Source of the DNA: an uncultured Gemmatimonadales bacterium
GTDB taxonomy: Bacteria > Gemmatimonadota > Gemmatimonadetes > JACCXV01 > JAHWKZ01
Length of the DNA: 34,213 nucleotides
Direction: 5' to 3'
Assembly: GCA_947259315.1 (NCBI GenBank)
Contig: CAMYLR010000001.1
Coordinates: 1 to 34,213, forward strand
The notes beneath the pieces were generated by a model. That model had not been told where the DNA came from and searched no databases. It saw only the letters and a program-made list of their open reading frames with translations. Positions 23,255-29,961 of this stretch are shown one piece after another. Each line of letters begins with the position of its first letter. Within the stretch, counting starts at the first letter, position 1. A program made the translations under genes and the position numbers.

Positions 23255-23290
23255 GGGGAAAACCTGTCGCCGCATTAGAACGGCGACAGG
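23255..23290 (-). terminator. Rho-independent terminator of the oxidase operon
   Basis: A perfect 10-base inverted repeat, CCTGTCGCCG (minus strand, 23290-23281) and CGGCGACAGG (23272-23263), is separated by eight bases and followed on the minus strand by TTTTCCCCC. The 5' arm encodes the last codons of cbaA, and the stop codon sits in the loop. Confidence 0.8.
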
Positions 23291-24897
23291 CCTCGGGCGC
23301 CGAAACGCTCCAGCTGTAGGTGCTGGATGATCGGGAGCGCGTAGGCGGCGATCACGAGCACGATCGCTATCGCGGTCCAGACCTTCATGTTGTCGAGGAT
23401 CATCGCCTTGTGACCCGGCGGTTCGATCGGCTCGGCGAAGTCGATCTCCTTCTGTGGACGCTTGGTCCCGGCTAAACCGGTTCCGAGCATGACCGCCGCG
23501 AAGCACAGCGCGCTGCCGAATAGGAACAGCCCGCCGACCGCCGAGATCCCTGTCCCGGGAAGCCACTGCTGAGCGATCTCGCTGCCACCGTACTGGAACT
23601 GGTAGATCCGGCGCGGCATCCCCTGGAGTCCGGTGAGGTGATTCGAGATCGAGAACAAGAGCATCCCCATAAACCAGAGGTACGGCTGTATGATCGCAAG
23701 CAGACCCAGCTCCAGATCGCGCCCGGTCAAAGCGGGCATCAATCGGTACGAGAAACCCATAAAGGTGAGCGCCGTAGCGGTGCCGACCGTCAGGTGGAAG
23801 TGTCCCTGCACCCACGCCGTGTTGTGGACCATCGCGTTCATCCCATAGGCGGCGTTGATCGCTCCGCCCCAGCCGCCGATGGCGAAGATCATCATCGCCA
23901 GGGCGACGCTCGAGAACGCCGGATCGCCCCAGGGCAGCTTCTCGAGCCAGTCGAACCAACCTCTGGCGCCCTTCAATCGGCCCGCGACCTCGAACGACGC
24001 GATGATCGTGAATGCGGTCAACATACTCGGGAAGATGATGAGCTGCGTGTTGAACACGTGGAACAGCTTCCACGTCGCGTCGACGCCAGGGTCCATTAGC
24101 TGATGGTGGAACCCGACCGGGGTCGAAAGCACGATGAACATGACGAAGACGAGCCGCGCTAGCGGATCGCTGAACAGTTTTCCGCCCGCGACTTTGGGTG
24201 TGATCGTGTACCAGATGACGTAGGCCGGGATCAGCCAGAAGTAGACCAGTGGATGCCCGAACCACCAGAAGAGCATTCGCGCCAAAATCGGGTCGATCTT
24301 CTCAGTGAACCCAAGCGACCACGGGATCAGGAGCAGCAGCGCTTCGGCGGCGACGCCGACGGTCGCCAACAGCCAGACGATGATCGTCGCTAGCATCCCG
24401 TGGACCGCAAGCGGTGTTCGACTCTCGGGGTTCTCCCGCTTCCACACCAGATAGGTGCGGATCAACACCCAACTCCAACCCCACGACCCCACGATCAGCA
24501 GCGTCGCGCCGATGTAGAACAGCGGATGAGCCTTGAGCGGCGGATAGAAGGTGTAGAGAACCGACGCCTTGCCGAGCAGGATCGCGCCCGACGCCATGAG
24601 GGTTCCAAGCGTTGCCACACCAAACGAGATCCACCCCACGGTACGCTGTTCGATCGATCGATGGAACGCGCGTTCGGTGAAGAAATACCCTAGCGCCATG
24701 ATGAAGAACGTGGTGAAGACGATCGCCATCAAGACGCCGTGTGCCGTGACTGACAAGTAGTACATCTTGGGAGTGCGGAAGGGGAGATCGAGGTCGGCGC
24801 GCGACAGCGCCTGCATGAGCGCCATCGCAGACGCGATCGTAAAGGCCGAAACCGCCACCCACAGGTTCGCCAGCGCGAGCCGGTGTGAGGGGATCAT
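23275..24897 (-). CDS. cbaA: ba3-type cytochrome c oxidase subunit I
   Basis: This 540-residue membrane protein is a B-type heme-copper oxidase subunit I, close in pattern to Thermus CbaA. Visible ligands are His53 ('TAHG', low-spin heme), His215 with Tyr219 ('GHPLVYF', CuB and the cross-linked tyrosine), His264 and His265 ('GFHHQ', CuB) and His366 and His368 ('GHFH', high-spin and low-spin heme). It reduces O2 to water while pumping protons at the inner membrane. ATG 24897 overlaps the stop of cbaB (ATGA), so the start is secure despite a longer open frame. The terminator hairpin spans its stop codon. B-type oxidases usually have high oxygen affinity. Confidence 0.94.
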   Translation of the reverse strand: MIPSHRLALANLWVAVSAFTIASAMALMQALSRADLDLPFRTPKMYYLSVTAHGVLMAIVFTTFFIMALGYFFTERAFHRSIEQRTVGWISFGVATLGTLMASGAILLGKASVLYTFYPPLKAHPLFYIGATLLIVGSWGWSWVLIRTYLVWKRENPESRTPLAVHGMLATIIVWLLATVGVAAEALLLLIPWSLGFTEKIDPILARMLFWWFGHPLVYFWLIPAYVIWYTITPKVAGGKLFSDPLARLVFVMFIVLSTPVGFHHQLMDPGVDATWKLFHVFNTQLIIFPSMLTAFTIIASFEVAGRLKGARGWFDWLEKLPWGDPAFSSVALAMMIFAIGGWGGAINAAYGMNAMVHNTAWVQGHFHLTVGTATALTFMGFSYRLMPALTGRDLELGLLAIIQPYLWFMGMLLFSISNHLTGLQGMPRRIYQFQYGGSEIAQQWLPGTGISAVGGLFLFGSALCFAAVMLGTGLAGTKRPQKEIDFAEPIEPPGHKAMILDNMKVWTAIAIVLVIAAYALPIIQHLQLERFGARGLSPF

Positions 24898-25394
24898 CGT
24901 TCGGCTCCGGTGATTGCGCTCGGGTTTTCCTCGACGATCAAGGTCCCGAACATGTTGTGATGGCCGATTCCGCAGTACTCGTTGCACACGATCAGGTACT
25001 CGCCGGCTTCTTCGAATACCGTCGTGAACTGAGTGACGTAGCCCGGAACGACCATCGCGTTACCGTTGGTCTGAGCGATTTGAAAGCCGTGTATGAGGTC
25101 CGGGGTCGCGATCCGGAACGTGACCGGTTGGCCGCGTGGTACGTGGATCTCGCGCGGCAAAAACGCGTACATGATCGCCTGCACAACCACAGTCGCACTG
25201 CCATCGGCGTGGATCGTGACACCGGGTTCGCCAAACTCGGAATGGGAACGGACTTCATCTGGGTCGATCGTTTCGATGTGGCTCGGTGGCACGAACGCCT
25301 GGCTAAACGTCGTCACGCCGATCGAGATGAGAAACACGACGATGATCGCAGTCGCTCCCCACATCCAGATCCGCTCGTAAAGGTCGACGTGCAT
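24894..25394 (-). CDS. cbaB: ba3-type cytochrome c oxidase subunit II (CuA)
   Basis: The 166-residue protein has one N-terminal membrane helix (residues about 10-30) and a periplasmic cupredoxin domain. The CuA site is complete: His102 ('LIHGF'), Cys137 and Cys141 in 'CNEYCGIGHHNM', His145 and Met148. It accepts electrons from cytochrome c and passes them to the low-spin heme of CbaA. A TAAGG ribosome-binding site straddles the end of cbaD just before ATG 25394; GTG 25397 is a possible alternative. The gene order cbaD-cbaB-cbaA is the Thermus thermophilus order. Confidence 0.93.
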   Translation of the reverse strand: MHVDLYERIWMWGATAIIVVFLISIGVTTFSQAFVPPSHIETIDPDEVRSHSEFGEPGVTIHADGSATVVVQAIMYAFLPREIHVPRGQPVTFRIATPDLIHGFQIAQTNGNAMVVPGYVTQFTTVFEEAGEYLIVCNEYCGIGHHNMFGTLIVEENPSAITGAER

Positions 25395-25401
25395 CACGGC
25401 C

Positions 25402-25560
25402 TTACGGTGTGAGCGTGCCGCGCGGCACGAATACGAAGAAGTACAGAACCAACCAAGCCAACAAGAAAAGCGCGCCGTAGACGGCGACTATGGCGAGTGT
25501 CCCCTTGGGATGTGAACCGATTTCGACGGGTTCAGAAGATTCGACGCGGTCGTCGCTCAT
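25402..25560 (-). CDS. cbaD: ba3 oxidase subunit IIa, single-helix
   Basis: A 52-codon gene read directly from the minus strand, starting at ATG 25560 after a strong GGAGG ribosome-binding site and ending at TAA 25404-25402, seven bases before cbaB. An 18-residue polar N-terminus leads into 'HPKGTLAIVAVYG', one membrane helix, and ends 'VFVPRGTLTP'. The Pro-Lys-Gly-(Thr/Ala)-Leu-Ala entry to the helix and the basic Arg-Gly after it match the 34-residue subunit IIa of Thermus ba3 oxidase, which packs against subunits I and II. Position, size and motif agree; the longer N-terminus differs from Thermus. Confidence 0.88.
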   Translation of the reverse strand: MSDDRVESSEPVEIGSHPKGTLAIVAVYGALFLLAWLVLYFFVFVPRGTLTP

Positions 25561-25634: not shown

Positions 25635-26399
25635 TCAGCGCATCGCGATGATGAACAACCGGCGAAACGGGAATAGAGTCGTGCCGTCCGAGCGCCGCGG
25701 ATACGCGGCGCGCAACCGCCTTTTGTAATCGGCTTCGTAGGCTTGGCGTTCGTCATCATCCAGCGCTTCGAGTAGGGGTTCCCCCCACGTGGCGCCGGTC
25801 CACTCGGCGATCGGGTCGTCACCCTGCAACACTTGCAGGTAGACGGTCTCCCAGATCTCGAGCGACGATGCACTAGGCGCCAGGATATCGTAGTAGTGTT
25901 CTGGCTCGGCCACAGGTGGTGGCCGCATAAGTGGTGTGAGCCGATCGCGCCATGGCCCTTCGCGCGCCGCGTCGTACATCAGGGTGTGGGACGGCTCGCC
26001 AAAATTGCGCGGCATTTGGATCGCCAGTACGCCACCGGGTGTCACGGATTGGAGCAACTTGGGCAAGAGGTGCGCGTGCTCATCGTCGACAAAGTGCAGC
26101 GCGGCGTTGGAGAACACGAGATCGAGTGGCCCTGTCGGGCTCCAGTTCGCGATATCGGCTTGAACCCAGTCGATGTCGTCCGGAAGCTCCCGCGCTCGGG
26201 CCAGCATCTCGCGTGAGCTGTCGATCCCGGTCAACTCCGCTCGTGGCCAACGCTCCGCGATCATCTGTGTGACGTTGCCCACGCCGCATCCCAGATCGAC
26301 GATCCGCCGCGGTGACTGCAGTTCGACCCGCGTCAACAGGTCGATCGCGGGTCGCAACCGCAGGTCGGCGTAACGGATGTACTGGTCAGGGTCCCACAC
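25635..26399 (-). CDS. tam: Trans-aconitate 2-methyltransferase
   Basis: The 254-residue product matches E. coli Tam along its length, from memory: 'RRIVDLGCGVGNVTQMI' (SAM motif I), 'ELTGIDSSREML', 'VFSNAALHFV', 'VLAIQMPRNFGEPSH' and 'YYDIL', ending in 'FPFRRLFIIAMR'. Tam methylates trans-aconitate, the toxic spontaneous isomer of cis-aconitate, using S-adenosylmethionine. The start is a GTG at 26399 with no clear Shine-Dalgarno, giving 'WDPDQYIRY', which lines up with the E. coli 'DWNPSLYLHF'. It lies 74 bases upstream of cbaD and downstream of the small basic ORF, and may share their transcript. A related small-acid methyltransferase is possible. Confidence 0.85.
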   Translation of the reverse strand: MWDPDQYIRYADLRLRPAIDLLTRVELQSPRRIVDLGCGVGNVTQMIAERWPRAELTGIDSSREMLARARELPDDIDWVQADIANWSPTGPLDLVFSNAALHFVDDEHAHLLPKLLQSVTPGGVLAIQMPRNFGEPSHTLMYDAAREGPWRDRLTPLMRPPPVAEPEHYYDILAPSASSLEIWETVYLQVLQGDDPIAEWTGATWGEPLLEALDDDERQAYEADYKRRLRAAYPRRSDGTTLFPFRRLFIIAMR

Positions 26400-26446
26400 C
26401 TGACGAAAGTAGTGCGTTGCGCCGGTCGGGTTAGACCGTCAAACGG

Positions 26447-26605
26447 TTATCCGACGTGCCGCACAAAGCGAGCAGCAGGACGGCGGGAAAGCCATCGCTG
26501 ATACAAGACCGTTTGGCCATTTTTGCGCTGTTTTGAACCTTTCTGGCCAGTTCGGCGTGGATGCGTCGGAGCACCCGTGGACGAGACACTTCGATTGTAG
26601 CTCAT
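26447..26605 (-). CDS. Small highly basic protein, candidate
   Basis: A 52-codon ORF on the minus strand starts at ATG 26605 with a consensus AAGGAG eight bases upstream (26619-26614) and ends at TAA 26449-26447. The product has about 12 Lys/Arg, two His and no acidic residue; the core 'RRTGQKGSKQRKNGQTVLYQ' (residues 17-36) is followed by an Arg-rich tail. I do not recognise it. The sequence would suit a nucleic-acid-binding peptide, but no fold is visible. Support is the ribosome-binding site and a promoter-like sequence about 110 bases upstream; the coding part itself has little other evidence. It could instead be a leader peptide for tam or an untranslated RNA. Confidence 0.45.
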   Translation of the reverse strand: MSYNRSVSSTGAPTHPRRTGQKGSKQRKNGQTVLYQRWLSRRPAARFVRHVG

Positions 26606-26662
26606 GATCCTATCTCCTTATATAGTAAGGTCCTAAGCCCGGCGGAAGGTCTTCCGTCGGGG
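26606..26662 (-). promoter_or_regulatory. Structured 5' leader with SD-sequestering stem
   Basis: Two inverted repeats lie upstream of the small ORF. At 26638-26661 an 11-base arm pair (CCCGACGGAAG / CTTCCGCCGGG on the minus strand, one G-U-type mismatch) forms a strong hairpin with no T-tract. At 26616-26630, CCTTA and TAAGG flank a five-base loop, and the TAAGG arm contains most of the AAGGAG ribosome-binding site, so folding would hide it. This could be a translational switch such as an RNA thermometer. Confidence 0.4.
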
Positions 26663-26715
26663 TGTAACTGATAATAAAGTCACAGCTATACTAAATAAAT
26701 ATACTTAACAGGTAG

Positions 26716-26743
26716 ATAATAGCATAATTAAATCAGAAGTCAA
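26716..26743 (-). promoter_or_regulatory. Sigma70-type promoter
   Basis: On the minus strand TTGACT (26743-26738) and TATTAT (26721-26716) are separated by 16 bases inside an AT-rich stretch of an otherwise high-GC sequence. Transcription would start near 26709, about 100 bases before the small basic ORF, and could continue into tam and the oxidase genes. The match is by eye. Confidence 0.55.
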
Positions 26744-26754
26744 GCACGATAGCC

Positions 26755-27669
26755 CTACCGGAAGTGGTTTGTCTCCCGGTCGATGCGCCAGAATAGCCCG
26801 ACGACGAAACCCCAAGCGAAACCCGCCAGCATCGAAAAACGACTTGGTTTTGGTCCGTATGTAGCGGCGACCTCAGATCCACCGCCGACCCAACGTTTGG
26901 AGAGTCGCGCCAAGGCGCAGAGCATCGGGATCCGTGTGAGTCTCAAAGATTTGGCGAAGGCGGCTCCACTGCCGTACCAGTTGCGCCGAATCGTGGCCGC
27001 CCGATCCACCCAGAGAGTCGGCGAGTGATGCGTGGTTTCAACATCGGGTGTTTGCAGAACGTGATAACCGCGCGCGAGAGCACGAAGCGTTAGGTCGAGA
27101 TCCTCGGCTGAACGGAGTGGCGCACCGACACCGAGCTTTTCGTCAAAGCCATGCAGCTCTCGCCAGACGGATCGCCGTACTCCCATGTTGGCGGTCGTTC
27201 CGCTCAGGCGGTGGATATCGTCTAGTCCCTCGACGAGCGTTTCTCCCGACAAGACGCAACCGGGCACGAACCCATCGTCCCTTTGGTAAGACCCCGGCGA
27301 CACCGAGCCGAAGAGCACGCCGACGTTCGGGCGCGTGTCAAACGCGTCGATCATCTTCTTGAGCCAATCGGCGCGTACGGTGCAATCATCGCCGGTGATT
27401 GCGAGGATCTCGGCTTCGGTCAGCCTCGCACCATGATTCAGAGCTACACTCAGCCCGCCACCGGAGTGTGCGGTGTAGTGCACGCGAGGGTCGTCAAGAA
27501 GGACATCCAAGCGTTCTCGGCTGAGCTCGTCGGTGCTCTGATCGATGACATGCACCTCGTAGTCCGAAAGCGTACTGCGAAGCACGCTTTCCAAAGCGAC
27601 GACGATGTCCTGGGGACGTTGCATCGTAGCGATGATCGCTGCGACGCACGGCGGAGAGGATGCGGTCAT
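26755..27669 (-). CDS. Family 2 glycosyltransferase
   Basis: This 304-residue GT-A enzyme opens with 'VAAIIATMQRPQDIVVALESVL' (residues about 9-30, split here only as a motif), has the nucleotide-sugar/metal motif region 'LAITGDDCTV' and a later acidic 'SAEDLDLTLRALARGY' typical of the catalytic-base region of GT2 proteins. A hydrophobic segment near the C-terminus ('FAWGFVVGLFW') may touch the membrane. ATG 27669 overlaps the stop of the deacetylase gene as ATGA, so I prefer it to the in-frame ATG 27684. Sugar donor and acceptor are unknown; pairing with a polysaccharide deacetylase suggests surface polysaccharide or glycolipid synthesis. Confidence 0.85.
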   Translation of the reverse strand: MTASSPPCVAAIIATMQRPQDIVVALESVLRSTLSDYEVHVIDQSTDELSRERLDVLLDDPRVHYTAHSGGGLSVALNHGARLTEAEILAITGDDCTVRADWLKKMIDAFDTRPNVGVLFGSVSPGSYQRDDGFVPGCVLSGETLVEGLDDIHRLSGTTANMGVRRSVWRELHGFDEKLGVGAPLRSAEDLDLTLRALARGYHVLQTPDVETTHHSPTLWVDRAATIRRNWYGSGAAFAKSLRLTRIPMLCALARLSKRWVGGGSEVAATYGPKPSRFSMLAGFAWGFVVGLFWRIDRETNHFR

Positions 27670-28451
27670 CGAAGTCGCGCCCATGCACGCCGAGTGTTGC
27701 GCGGCACCGCCCGGAAGCGCAGGTAGGCCGGCAGGAGCGGGGTCGCCAGCAGGTCGAAAATCGGTCGGCGGCTGAAGTAATACATCTCGACTCGCTCGAG
27801 CGCGTACTTATCGCTGGCGCGGGTCACGACGCCGAGCCGATCCGAGCACGCGCAGTTGTAGTGCCGGGCCGCGATCTCTCGCGCTTGTTGGTCGTACTTT
27901 CCACGTGGGTACGCAAAGCTCTGAACGCTCACGCCGAGACGATCTTCCAGGATCGCTTTCGCGCCCACGATTTCCGCCTCGGCCTCCGACTCCCCCAAAC
28001 GGGTCAGATCGGGGTGCGTCAGCGTATGCGCTCCAACCGCGAAACCGGCACCGACCATCTCGCCGAGCTCTCTCCAGCTCACCATCGGTTGACCCTCGAT
28101 CGGGGGAAGCCTCTCGAAAGGATCCCGGCCGGCCCGGTGGCCAGTGGTCACGAAGACGGTCGCGGTCATGCCGTGCTCCTGTAGTGCCGGGAAAGCTTCG
28201 CGGTACGCGCTCTCGTAACCGTCGTCGATCGTGATTACGAGGCTCTTCGGGGGGAGCGGAGAACCGGCGCTTAGAGTCTCGACGGCGTCAAGGAGATCGA
28301 CGCTCCTGTACCCCCTGCGAGCGAGTCGCGCGAGCCCGCTCCGAAGCACCGCGGGCGGAAACGAAATAGTGGAAGCCGGCCTGGCAAAACCGTGAAAGGT
28401 CAGAATCGCCAGGTGGCCGGAACCAGAGGTAGTGGGCCAGTTTTCGCTCAT
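27666..28451 (-). CDS. Polysaccharide deacetylase (CE4 / NodB-like)
   Basis: The 261-residue product has the NodB homology domain of carbohydrate esterase family 4: motif 1 'TIDDGY' with Asp76 and Asp77, and the zinc motif 'HTLTHPD' with His142 and His146; 'SFAYPRGKYD' is the motif 3 region. These enzymes remove N-acetyl groups from chitin-like or peptidoglycan-type sugars. ATG 28451 is chosen because everything upstream in this frame is antisense to the P450 gene. The start codon shares the palindrome CATG with the P450 start on the other strand. No signal peptide is visible. It is coupled to the GT2 gene by an ATGA overlap. Confidence 0.87.
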   Translation of the reverse strand: MSENWPTTSGSGHLAILTFHGFARPASTISFPPAVLRSGLARLARRGYRSVDLLDAVETLSAGSPLPPKSLVITIDDGYESAYREAFPALQEHGMTATVFVTTGHRAGRDPFERLPPIEGQPMVSWRELGEMVGAGFAVGAHTLTHPDLTRLGESEAEAEIVGAKAILEDRLGVSVQSFAYPRGKYDQQAREIAARHYNCACSDRLGVVTRASDKYALERVEMYYFSRRPIFDLLATPLLPAYLRFRAVPRNTRRAWARLR

Positions 28452-29961
28452 GGAGCGCGCTCTGGAGTTGGGAGTCTTGTTGGTTGCGGCGACGTTGGCG
28501 CTGCGGATCCTGTCGATGCCGGCCGCTCGTCGGGAGTTGCGCGAACAGCCTCGATTCGCGGCGATCCTCGCCCTGCTGGGCGTCGCGTTGGCTGCAACGA
28601 TCTTGGCTGCAGTTCGCTCGCCGATCGCCCTGCGATTGGTTGCCATCGCTGCGGTCGCATGGGTCGCGTTCTTCGCATGGCGCTCCCGTCCTGGTTTTGG
28701 TCGCAGCCGCTCCCGCCCGCCCGGTTCCTTGGGCTTAAAGAACTCGCTTGATGCCATCGTAGATCGAAGCTTCTACGCAGGCCAGGCCCAGCGCCACGGC
28801 CCGGTGTTCAAGATGGCGCAGTTTCACCAGCCGGTCGTCTGCATCGTGGACATCGGAACGGGCCGAGAGCTCCTCAAACGCGAGTCCGAGAGCCTCGTGC
28901 TCGCCCCGCTGCCGATCAGCGCCGAGATCCCGCTCGGATTTATCCGCTACATGAAGCCCGACGATTACGCTGTCTACTCACAGCTGTTTCGGGCGGCGTT
29001 CTCGGAGGCTGTGCTCGAGCCGAATCGTGAGTTCGCGTTGGAAACCATCCGTCGAGAACTGGATGCGATCGCAGCTCCTGTCGACGGTGGATCCCAGGTC
29101 GTCGATCCGCGAGGTATCGTAGAGCGAATCATGTTCGCTGTATTGCTGCGGGTCTACTTCGGCGACGACATCAGTCCCGCTGATCGGAGCGTCATCGAAG
29201 GTTGTTGTCGAGACATCGGATCCGGTAACACGATCGGCAGAGCCAGTGCTCGGGCGCGACGCGCGTTACATACGTTCGAAGAATTGATTCGTGAGCGTAG
29301 CGGTAGCGACACGATCCTGCAGTACGCTCACTCCTCAGTATGGGGTAAGGTTTTGCGCTTGAGACCCGAGTCGGGTACCGATTCGACGGCGATCGGGAAC
29401 ACTCTCCTGCTGCTCGAGGCGTCGCGGGACAGCATCGGCGGGTTGCTGATGTGGATCCTGAAGAACCTCGCTGACAGTCCCGAGTCGATTGAGATGGTCC
29501 GCGGCGCGGAAAGCGGCGCGGCTTCTATCAAAGACTCGACGGATCGCGTCGTTCTGGAAACGCTTCGGTTGGCTCAGAGCGAGTACGTCTACCGCAAGGT
29601 CATTAGGCCGATCGAATTCGACGGCTTCCAGATCCCGAAAGGGTGGTTTGTCCGTGTTTGCGTGGCCGAGGTGCACACGCAGAACCCGCCGTTCGATCGG
29701 CCCGAGGCGTTCGACCCAACCCGGTTCGCGAACCGGCGGTTCACTCGTGACGAGTTCTCGCCGTTCGGGCTCGACCACCATGCGTGTATGGGCGCCTCGC
29801 TGACGATGTTCGTGGGCCGTGCTTTTGTCGACGTGCTGGCTCATGATTTTGATGTTCGTGTCGTTGCCGACGGCGCGCCCGAGCGCGGCAACCGGCACTG
29901 GAATCACTGGCGGCCGAGCTCCCAGTTCCGGGTCTCGCTGTCCCGTCGCGGAGTTGTTTGA
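28450..29961 (+). CDS. Cytochrome P450 with N-terminal membrane segments
   Basis: The 503-residue protein carries the P450 heme-binding motif 'PFGLDHHACMG' (Cys446 is the heme ligand) and the ExxR motif Glu370-Thr-Leu-Arg373. The I-helix region 'LLLLEASRDSIGG' departs from the usual (A/G)Gx(D/E)T pattern, which may affect O2 activation. Two hydrophobic segments (residues about 7-25 and 36-78) precede the P450 domain, unusual for soluble bacterial P450s. ATG 28450 is adopted; GTG 28432 lies in frame upstream. No redox partner gene is visible nearby. It is divergent from the deacetylase gene. Substrate unknown. Confidence 0.88.
   Translation: MERALELGVLLVAATLALRILSMPAARRELREQPRFAAILALLGVALAATILAAVRSPIALRLVAIAAVAWVAFFAWRSRPGFGRSRSRPPGSLGLKNSLDAIVDRSFYAGQAQRHGPVFKMAQFHQPVVCIVDIGTGRELLKRESESLVLAPLPISAEIPLGFIRYMKPDDYAVYSQLFRAAFSEAVLEPNREFALETIRRELDAIAAPVDGGSQVVDPRGIVERIMFAVLLRVYFGDDISPADRSVIEGCCRDIGSGNTIGRASARARRALHTFEELIRERSGSDTILQYAHSSVWGKVLRLRPESGTDSTAIGNTLLLLEASRDSIGGLLMWILKNLADSPESIEMVRGAESGAASIKDSTDRVVLETLRLAQSEYVYRKVIRPIEFDGFQIPKGWFVRVCVAEVHTQNPPFDRPEAFDPTRFANRRFTRDEFSPFGLDHHACMGASLTMFVGRAFVDVLAHDFDVRVVADGAPERGNRHWNHWRPSSQFRVSLSRRGVV

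Follow-up and report, generated by a model that had tools for sequence, protein, structure and literature searches.

Does the interval between a glycosyltransferase gene and a methyltransferase gene on the minus strand of a 2.4 Mb Gemmatimonadota genome, with its AT-rich upstream part and its 52-codon open reading frame (ORF52), encode a small protein, or does it act on the gene that follows? By "the window" we mean the whole stretch of DNA analysed (34,213 nucleotides), and it was compared with G001, a Gemmatimonadota MAG of the same genus (79% complete), which was the only congener among the genomes compared. We give an even chance to the reading in which ORF52 is a genuine gene for a small protein restricted to the genus, first in a short operon with a tam-like gene, with its own promoter, a leader hairpin, an open AAGGAG and a basic product likely to bind nucleic acid or ribosomes.

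Gene order around ORF52 in two genomes

On the minus strand a family 2 glycosyltransferase gene (26755-27684; Pfam PF00535; 79% identical in G001), with its stop at 26755, is followed by ORF52 and then by a SAM methyltransferase gene (25635-26399; 72% identical in G001) starting at 26399, and the same order is found in G001. The methyltransferase matched two trans-aconitate methyltransferase models, PRK14103 and PRK01683, with scores under the curated cut-offs of both, and "tam-like" is therefore the safe name. It is the next gene after ORF52 and runs in the same direction, with a spacer of 47 nt in the window and 125 nt in G001. The G001 spacer includes a strong G-rich hairpin (GGGAGGGGGTGAGGTCACCCCTCCCC; contig L072, 2737-2771, minus strand) that is missing from the window.

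The first-pass annotation had placed this region upstream of both tam and the oxidase genes. The first half of that description holds, as a small gene with its own predicted promoter and a leader hairpin does precede tam. In the window coxIIa, coxII and coxI (heme-copper cytochrome oxidase; 23275-25560) lie 3' of tam and before an S15 hydrolase gene, but they are missing at the corresponding site of G001 (L072 1824-1905), where the hydrolase gene follows directly after tam, and oxidase subunit I was not found anywhere in that genome at its 79% completeness. The proposed link to the oxidase genes is thus not supported; it is tam, rather than the oxidase, that ORF52 accompanies.

Coding-type constraint in the 3' part of ORF52

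ORF52 (MSYNRSVSSTGAPTHPRRTGQKGSKQRKNGQTVLYQRWLSRRPAARFVRHVG; 52 codons plus TAA; 26447-26605, minus strand) is preceded by the ribosome-binding site AAGGAG (26614-26619, minus strand), which is read directly from the sequence 8 nt before the ATG. Both had been pointed out in the first-pass annotation and both recur in G001, where an ORF of the same length, 52 codons, has the identical hexamer 10 nt before its ATG. The further remark that the ORF is without any acidic residue is true of the window, which has no D or E in ORF52, but not of the G001 counterpart, which has five. Nor is charge conserved in the N-terminal half, which weakens any role that requires the whole protein to be basic.

Similarity between the two genomes is concentrated in codons 31-52 plus the stop (26447-26515, minus strand; Q.VL..RWLSRRPA.RFVRHVG), where 18 of the 22 residues are identical (82%) and dN/dS was about 0.17, against about 0.70 in codons 1-30. 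Thirteen base changes fall in this 3' block, and they alter the meaning of only 4 of its 23 codons where 8.4 would be expected (P = 0.003); read in the other two frames, the same changes affect 11 and 9 codons. This constraint, which comes from one genome pair (that of the window and G001), speaks modestly, though consistently, for a protein, and part of the 3'-end conservation could be at the level of RNA. AlphaFold predicted a helix at residues 21-41 followed by an arginine-rich tail, at a low confidence (mean pLDDT 66) too weak for a fold search, and comparison of the peptide with Pfam, NCBIfam and solved structures gave no match.

Distribution of ORF52

Outside the genus no relative of ORF52 beyond chance level was found in 61 close genomes or in about 395 genomes of the class and phylum. 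The peptide had no relative in GTDB contigs, and viral contigs, phages and plasmids gave chance-level matches only. Two candidates were rejected: a match in G304 (E 7.8e-4, 394 genomes) had unrelated neighbours and no tam context, and the best outsider, a match in G139 obtained with a C-terminal-only model (E 9e-5, 395 genomes), was taken as chance, lying in another frame in what is presumably a hemF/hemY-like region. Elsewhere, 51 loci with relatives of Tam (those outside the genus reaching 47% identity) had no ORF52 nearby. Among the 61 genomes searched, a close tam ortholog and ORF52 occurred in the same two. A search of the literature gave nothing relevant.

Predicted promoter and leader of ORF52

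Upstream of ORF52, positions 26606-26754 have 38.9% GC where the window mean is 62%, and the core of this stretch (26652-26751; 32% GC) is the lowest 100-base segment in 34 kb, the second-lowest having 46%. The sharp fall in base composition against both flanks, with which the first-pass annotation began, is therefore real, and so is the near-consensus minus-strand sequence that it had read as a promoter (TTGACT, 16 bases, TATTAT; 26716-26743), which is of sigma-70 type and has an extended -10 TG. Its score was reached in 0.5% of local shuffles (p = 0.005), and the pattern TTGACN-(15-19)-TATNAT occurs at nine sites in the 2.4 Mb genome, compared with one for a reversed control pattern, so the putative promoter is unlikely to be due to chance. 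Transcription would be predicted to start near 26709. The G001 leader has 54% GC and so does not share the AT-richness, and no comparable promoter was detected in it (best score 8, versus 11 in the window); the comparison thus gives no support for conservation of the AT-rich promoter.

The hairpin of the window leader (26638-26661, minus strand; 9 pairs with one internal A/C mismatch, -13.1 kcal/mol) ends 18 nt before AAGGAG, and in 149 of 150 shuffled leaders the best 30-nt hairpin was less stable. The first-pass annotation had credited it with 11 base pairs; the hairpin is there, but although 10 of the 11 arm positions are matched, a 2-base loop and the A/C mismatch leave only 9 pairs that can form. 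The G001 hairpin, at -15.2 kcal/mol, was equalled in none of 150 shuffles; its sequence is largely different, it stands about 18-19 nt before AAGGAG, as in the window, and it is the position of the hairpin, rather than its sequence, that is kept. Folding of the whole G001 leader gave another structure that competes with the hairpin, and the whole-leader fold of the window had a z of only -0.9.

Closer to the start codon, the small stem CCTTA-CTATA-TAAGG (26616-26630, minus strand) overlaps the ribosome-binding site. The letters for such a second stem are present, as had been claimed, but it does not cover the site to much effect: in ensemble calculations the unpaired probability of AAGGAG was 0.585 at 15 °C, 0.566 at 37 °C and 0.50 at 60 °C, the 37 °C value being more open than in most shuffles, and the stem is poorly conserved, with 5 pairs in the window and 3 in G001. 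Conservation of leader and ORF in relatives, with covarying stems, had also been suggested as something to look for; the ORF, the AAGGAG and the hairpin position were recovered in G001, the small stem was reduced to its 3 pairs, and the leader hairpins, being two sequences only, are not classed as covariation.

ORF52 as a candidate small-protein gene

The sequence features and the coding-type constraint between two genomes are established, and from these we infer the following course of expression. A promoter inside the AT-rich stretch would start the ORF52 transcript near the predicted position, giving a leader of about 104 nt whose stable hairpin would most likely serve in 5'-end protection or in the docking of a regulator. 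The open AAGGAG would allow ordinary translation of ORF52, which would be co-transcribed with the tam-like gene and come first. Its product would be a basic protein of 52 residues, variable in its N-terminal half and constrained at the C-terminal end, and most likely a small protein that binds nucleic acid or ribosomes.

Unannotated lineage-specific small proteins are found by conservation or by ribosome profiling. ORF52 resembles them in being short, in having a strong ribosome-binding site and a putative promoter of its own, in matching no family and in its coding-type constraint within the genus; it differs in that only the C-terminal 22 residues are constrained and in being known here from sequence alone. 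Probably it is an ordinary small gene, specific to its lineage, that stands before a methyltransferase gene. None of the curated libraries searched recognises it, a second genome supports it, and its phylum has been little studied. What is unusual is that, ahead of a methyltransferase gene, the N-terminal half is free and the C-terminal end fixed, which would allow a small protein to be told clearly and cheaply from a leader peptide; apart from this pattern of constraint the locus is ordinary.

Alternative explanations

The main rival, which we hold to be rather unlikely, is that ORF52 is a regulatory leader peptide (an upstream ORF), and that translating or stalling on its conserved C-terminal end controls tam. 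The constraint would suit this, as it is limited to the last 22 codons and extends to the stop, whereas the 30 codons before them drift in sequence and not in number, and so would the co-occurrence of ORF52 with the tam ortholog in the same two of the searched genomes. A small palindrome (ACCGTTTGACGGT; 26435-26447, minus strand) lies at the stop codon in the window and has a counterpart (ACCGATCATCGGT) at the same place in G001, which is suggestive only. Inspection of the start regions showed no AAGGAG or other ribosome-binding site before tam in either genome, which would also suit this reading, but the start region of the glycosyltransferase gene has no ribosome-binding site either, and the absence before tam is therefore not special. 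Against a leader peptide, the spacers between ORF52 and tam differ in length, they fold differently in the two genomes, and no conserved terminator or competing structure was found in them. SecM, TnaC and SpeFL are arrest or leader peptides that lie upstream of a regulated gene; like these, ORF52 is short, precedes a gene and is kept towards its C-terminus and stop, but neither a conserved structure over the downstream start nor a conserved terminator was found for it. A more specific version, in which ORF52 would be a new nascent-chain sensor whose C-terminal motif stalls the ribosome as a response to a metabolite, thereby linking translation with tam expression, we consider quite improbable.

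It is also improbable that the conserved thing is a DNA or RNA element, made up of the stop-codon palindrome as an operator and a structured 3' part, with the ORF incidental to it. The DNA of the 3' part is 85% identical over 67 nt, the window and G001 have the local stem GATGGC/GCCGTC in common, and the palindrome is retained with one paired change, its inner pair T-A becoming A-T in G001. However, the substitutions are coding-like in the ORF frame only, and start, AAGGAG, length and stop are all retained in G001.

We think it very unlikely that ORF52 is part of a now functionless cassette, inserted or in decay, that separates the glycosyltransferase gene from tam and derives for example from a duplication of the glycosyltransferase 3' end. 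This idea draws on a 21-nt direct repeat in G001 that links the glycosyltransferase stop to the start of tam (L072 2666-2686 and 3059-3079; 19 of 21 positions identical, better than 5000 random comparisons) and might be the trace of a former insertion of the ORF52 stretch or of its duplication. In the window the copy before tam (TACTTTCGTYAG) is retained at 26400-26411 and its partner has drifted, and the pair is not recognisable as a repeat; moreover, the 3' part of ORF52 is constrained, and the window genome has no other copy of ORF52.

Least probable of all is control of ORF52 translation by an RNA thermometer or another riboswitch-like leader: part of the ribosome-binding site can be paired in a stem, as in the FourU and ROSE thermometers of Rfam, and the leader hairpin is retained in position in G001, but AAGGAG is already 57% unpaired at 37 °C and becomes slightly less open from 15 to 60 °C, in G001 the stem is weak and unkept, the whole leader folds with a z of only -0.9, and Rfam gave no match above the gathering threshold and, at a lower one, only two unrelated weak matches (E up to 5). 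The temperature switch put forward in the first-pass annotation is accordingly not supported.

Among the neighbouring genes, the longest readings of a polysaccharide deacetylase gene (27666-28757, minus strand) and a divergent P450 gene (28432-29961, plus strand) overlap at their 5' ends, and at least one of the two starts probably lies further in.
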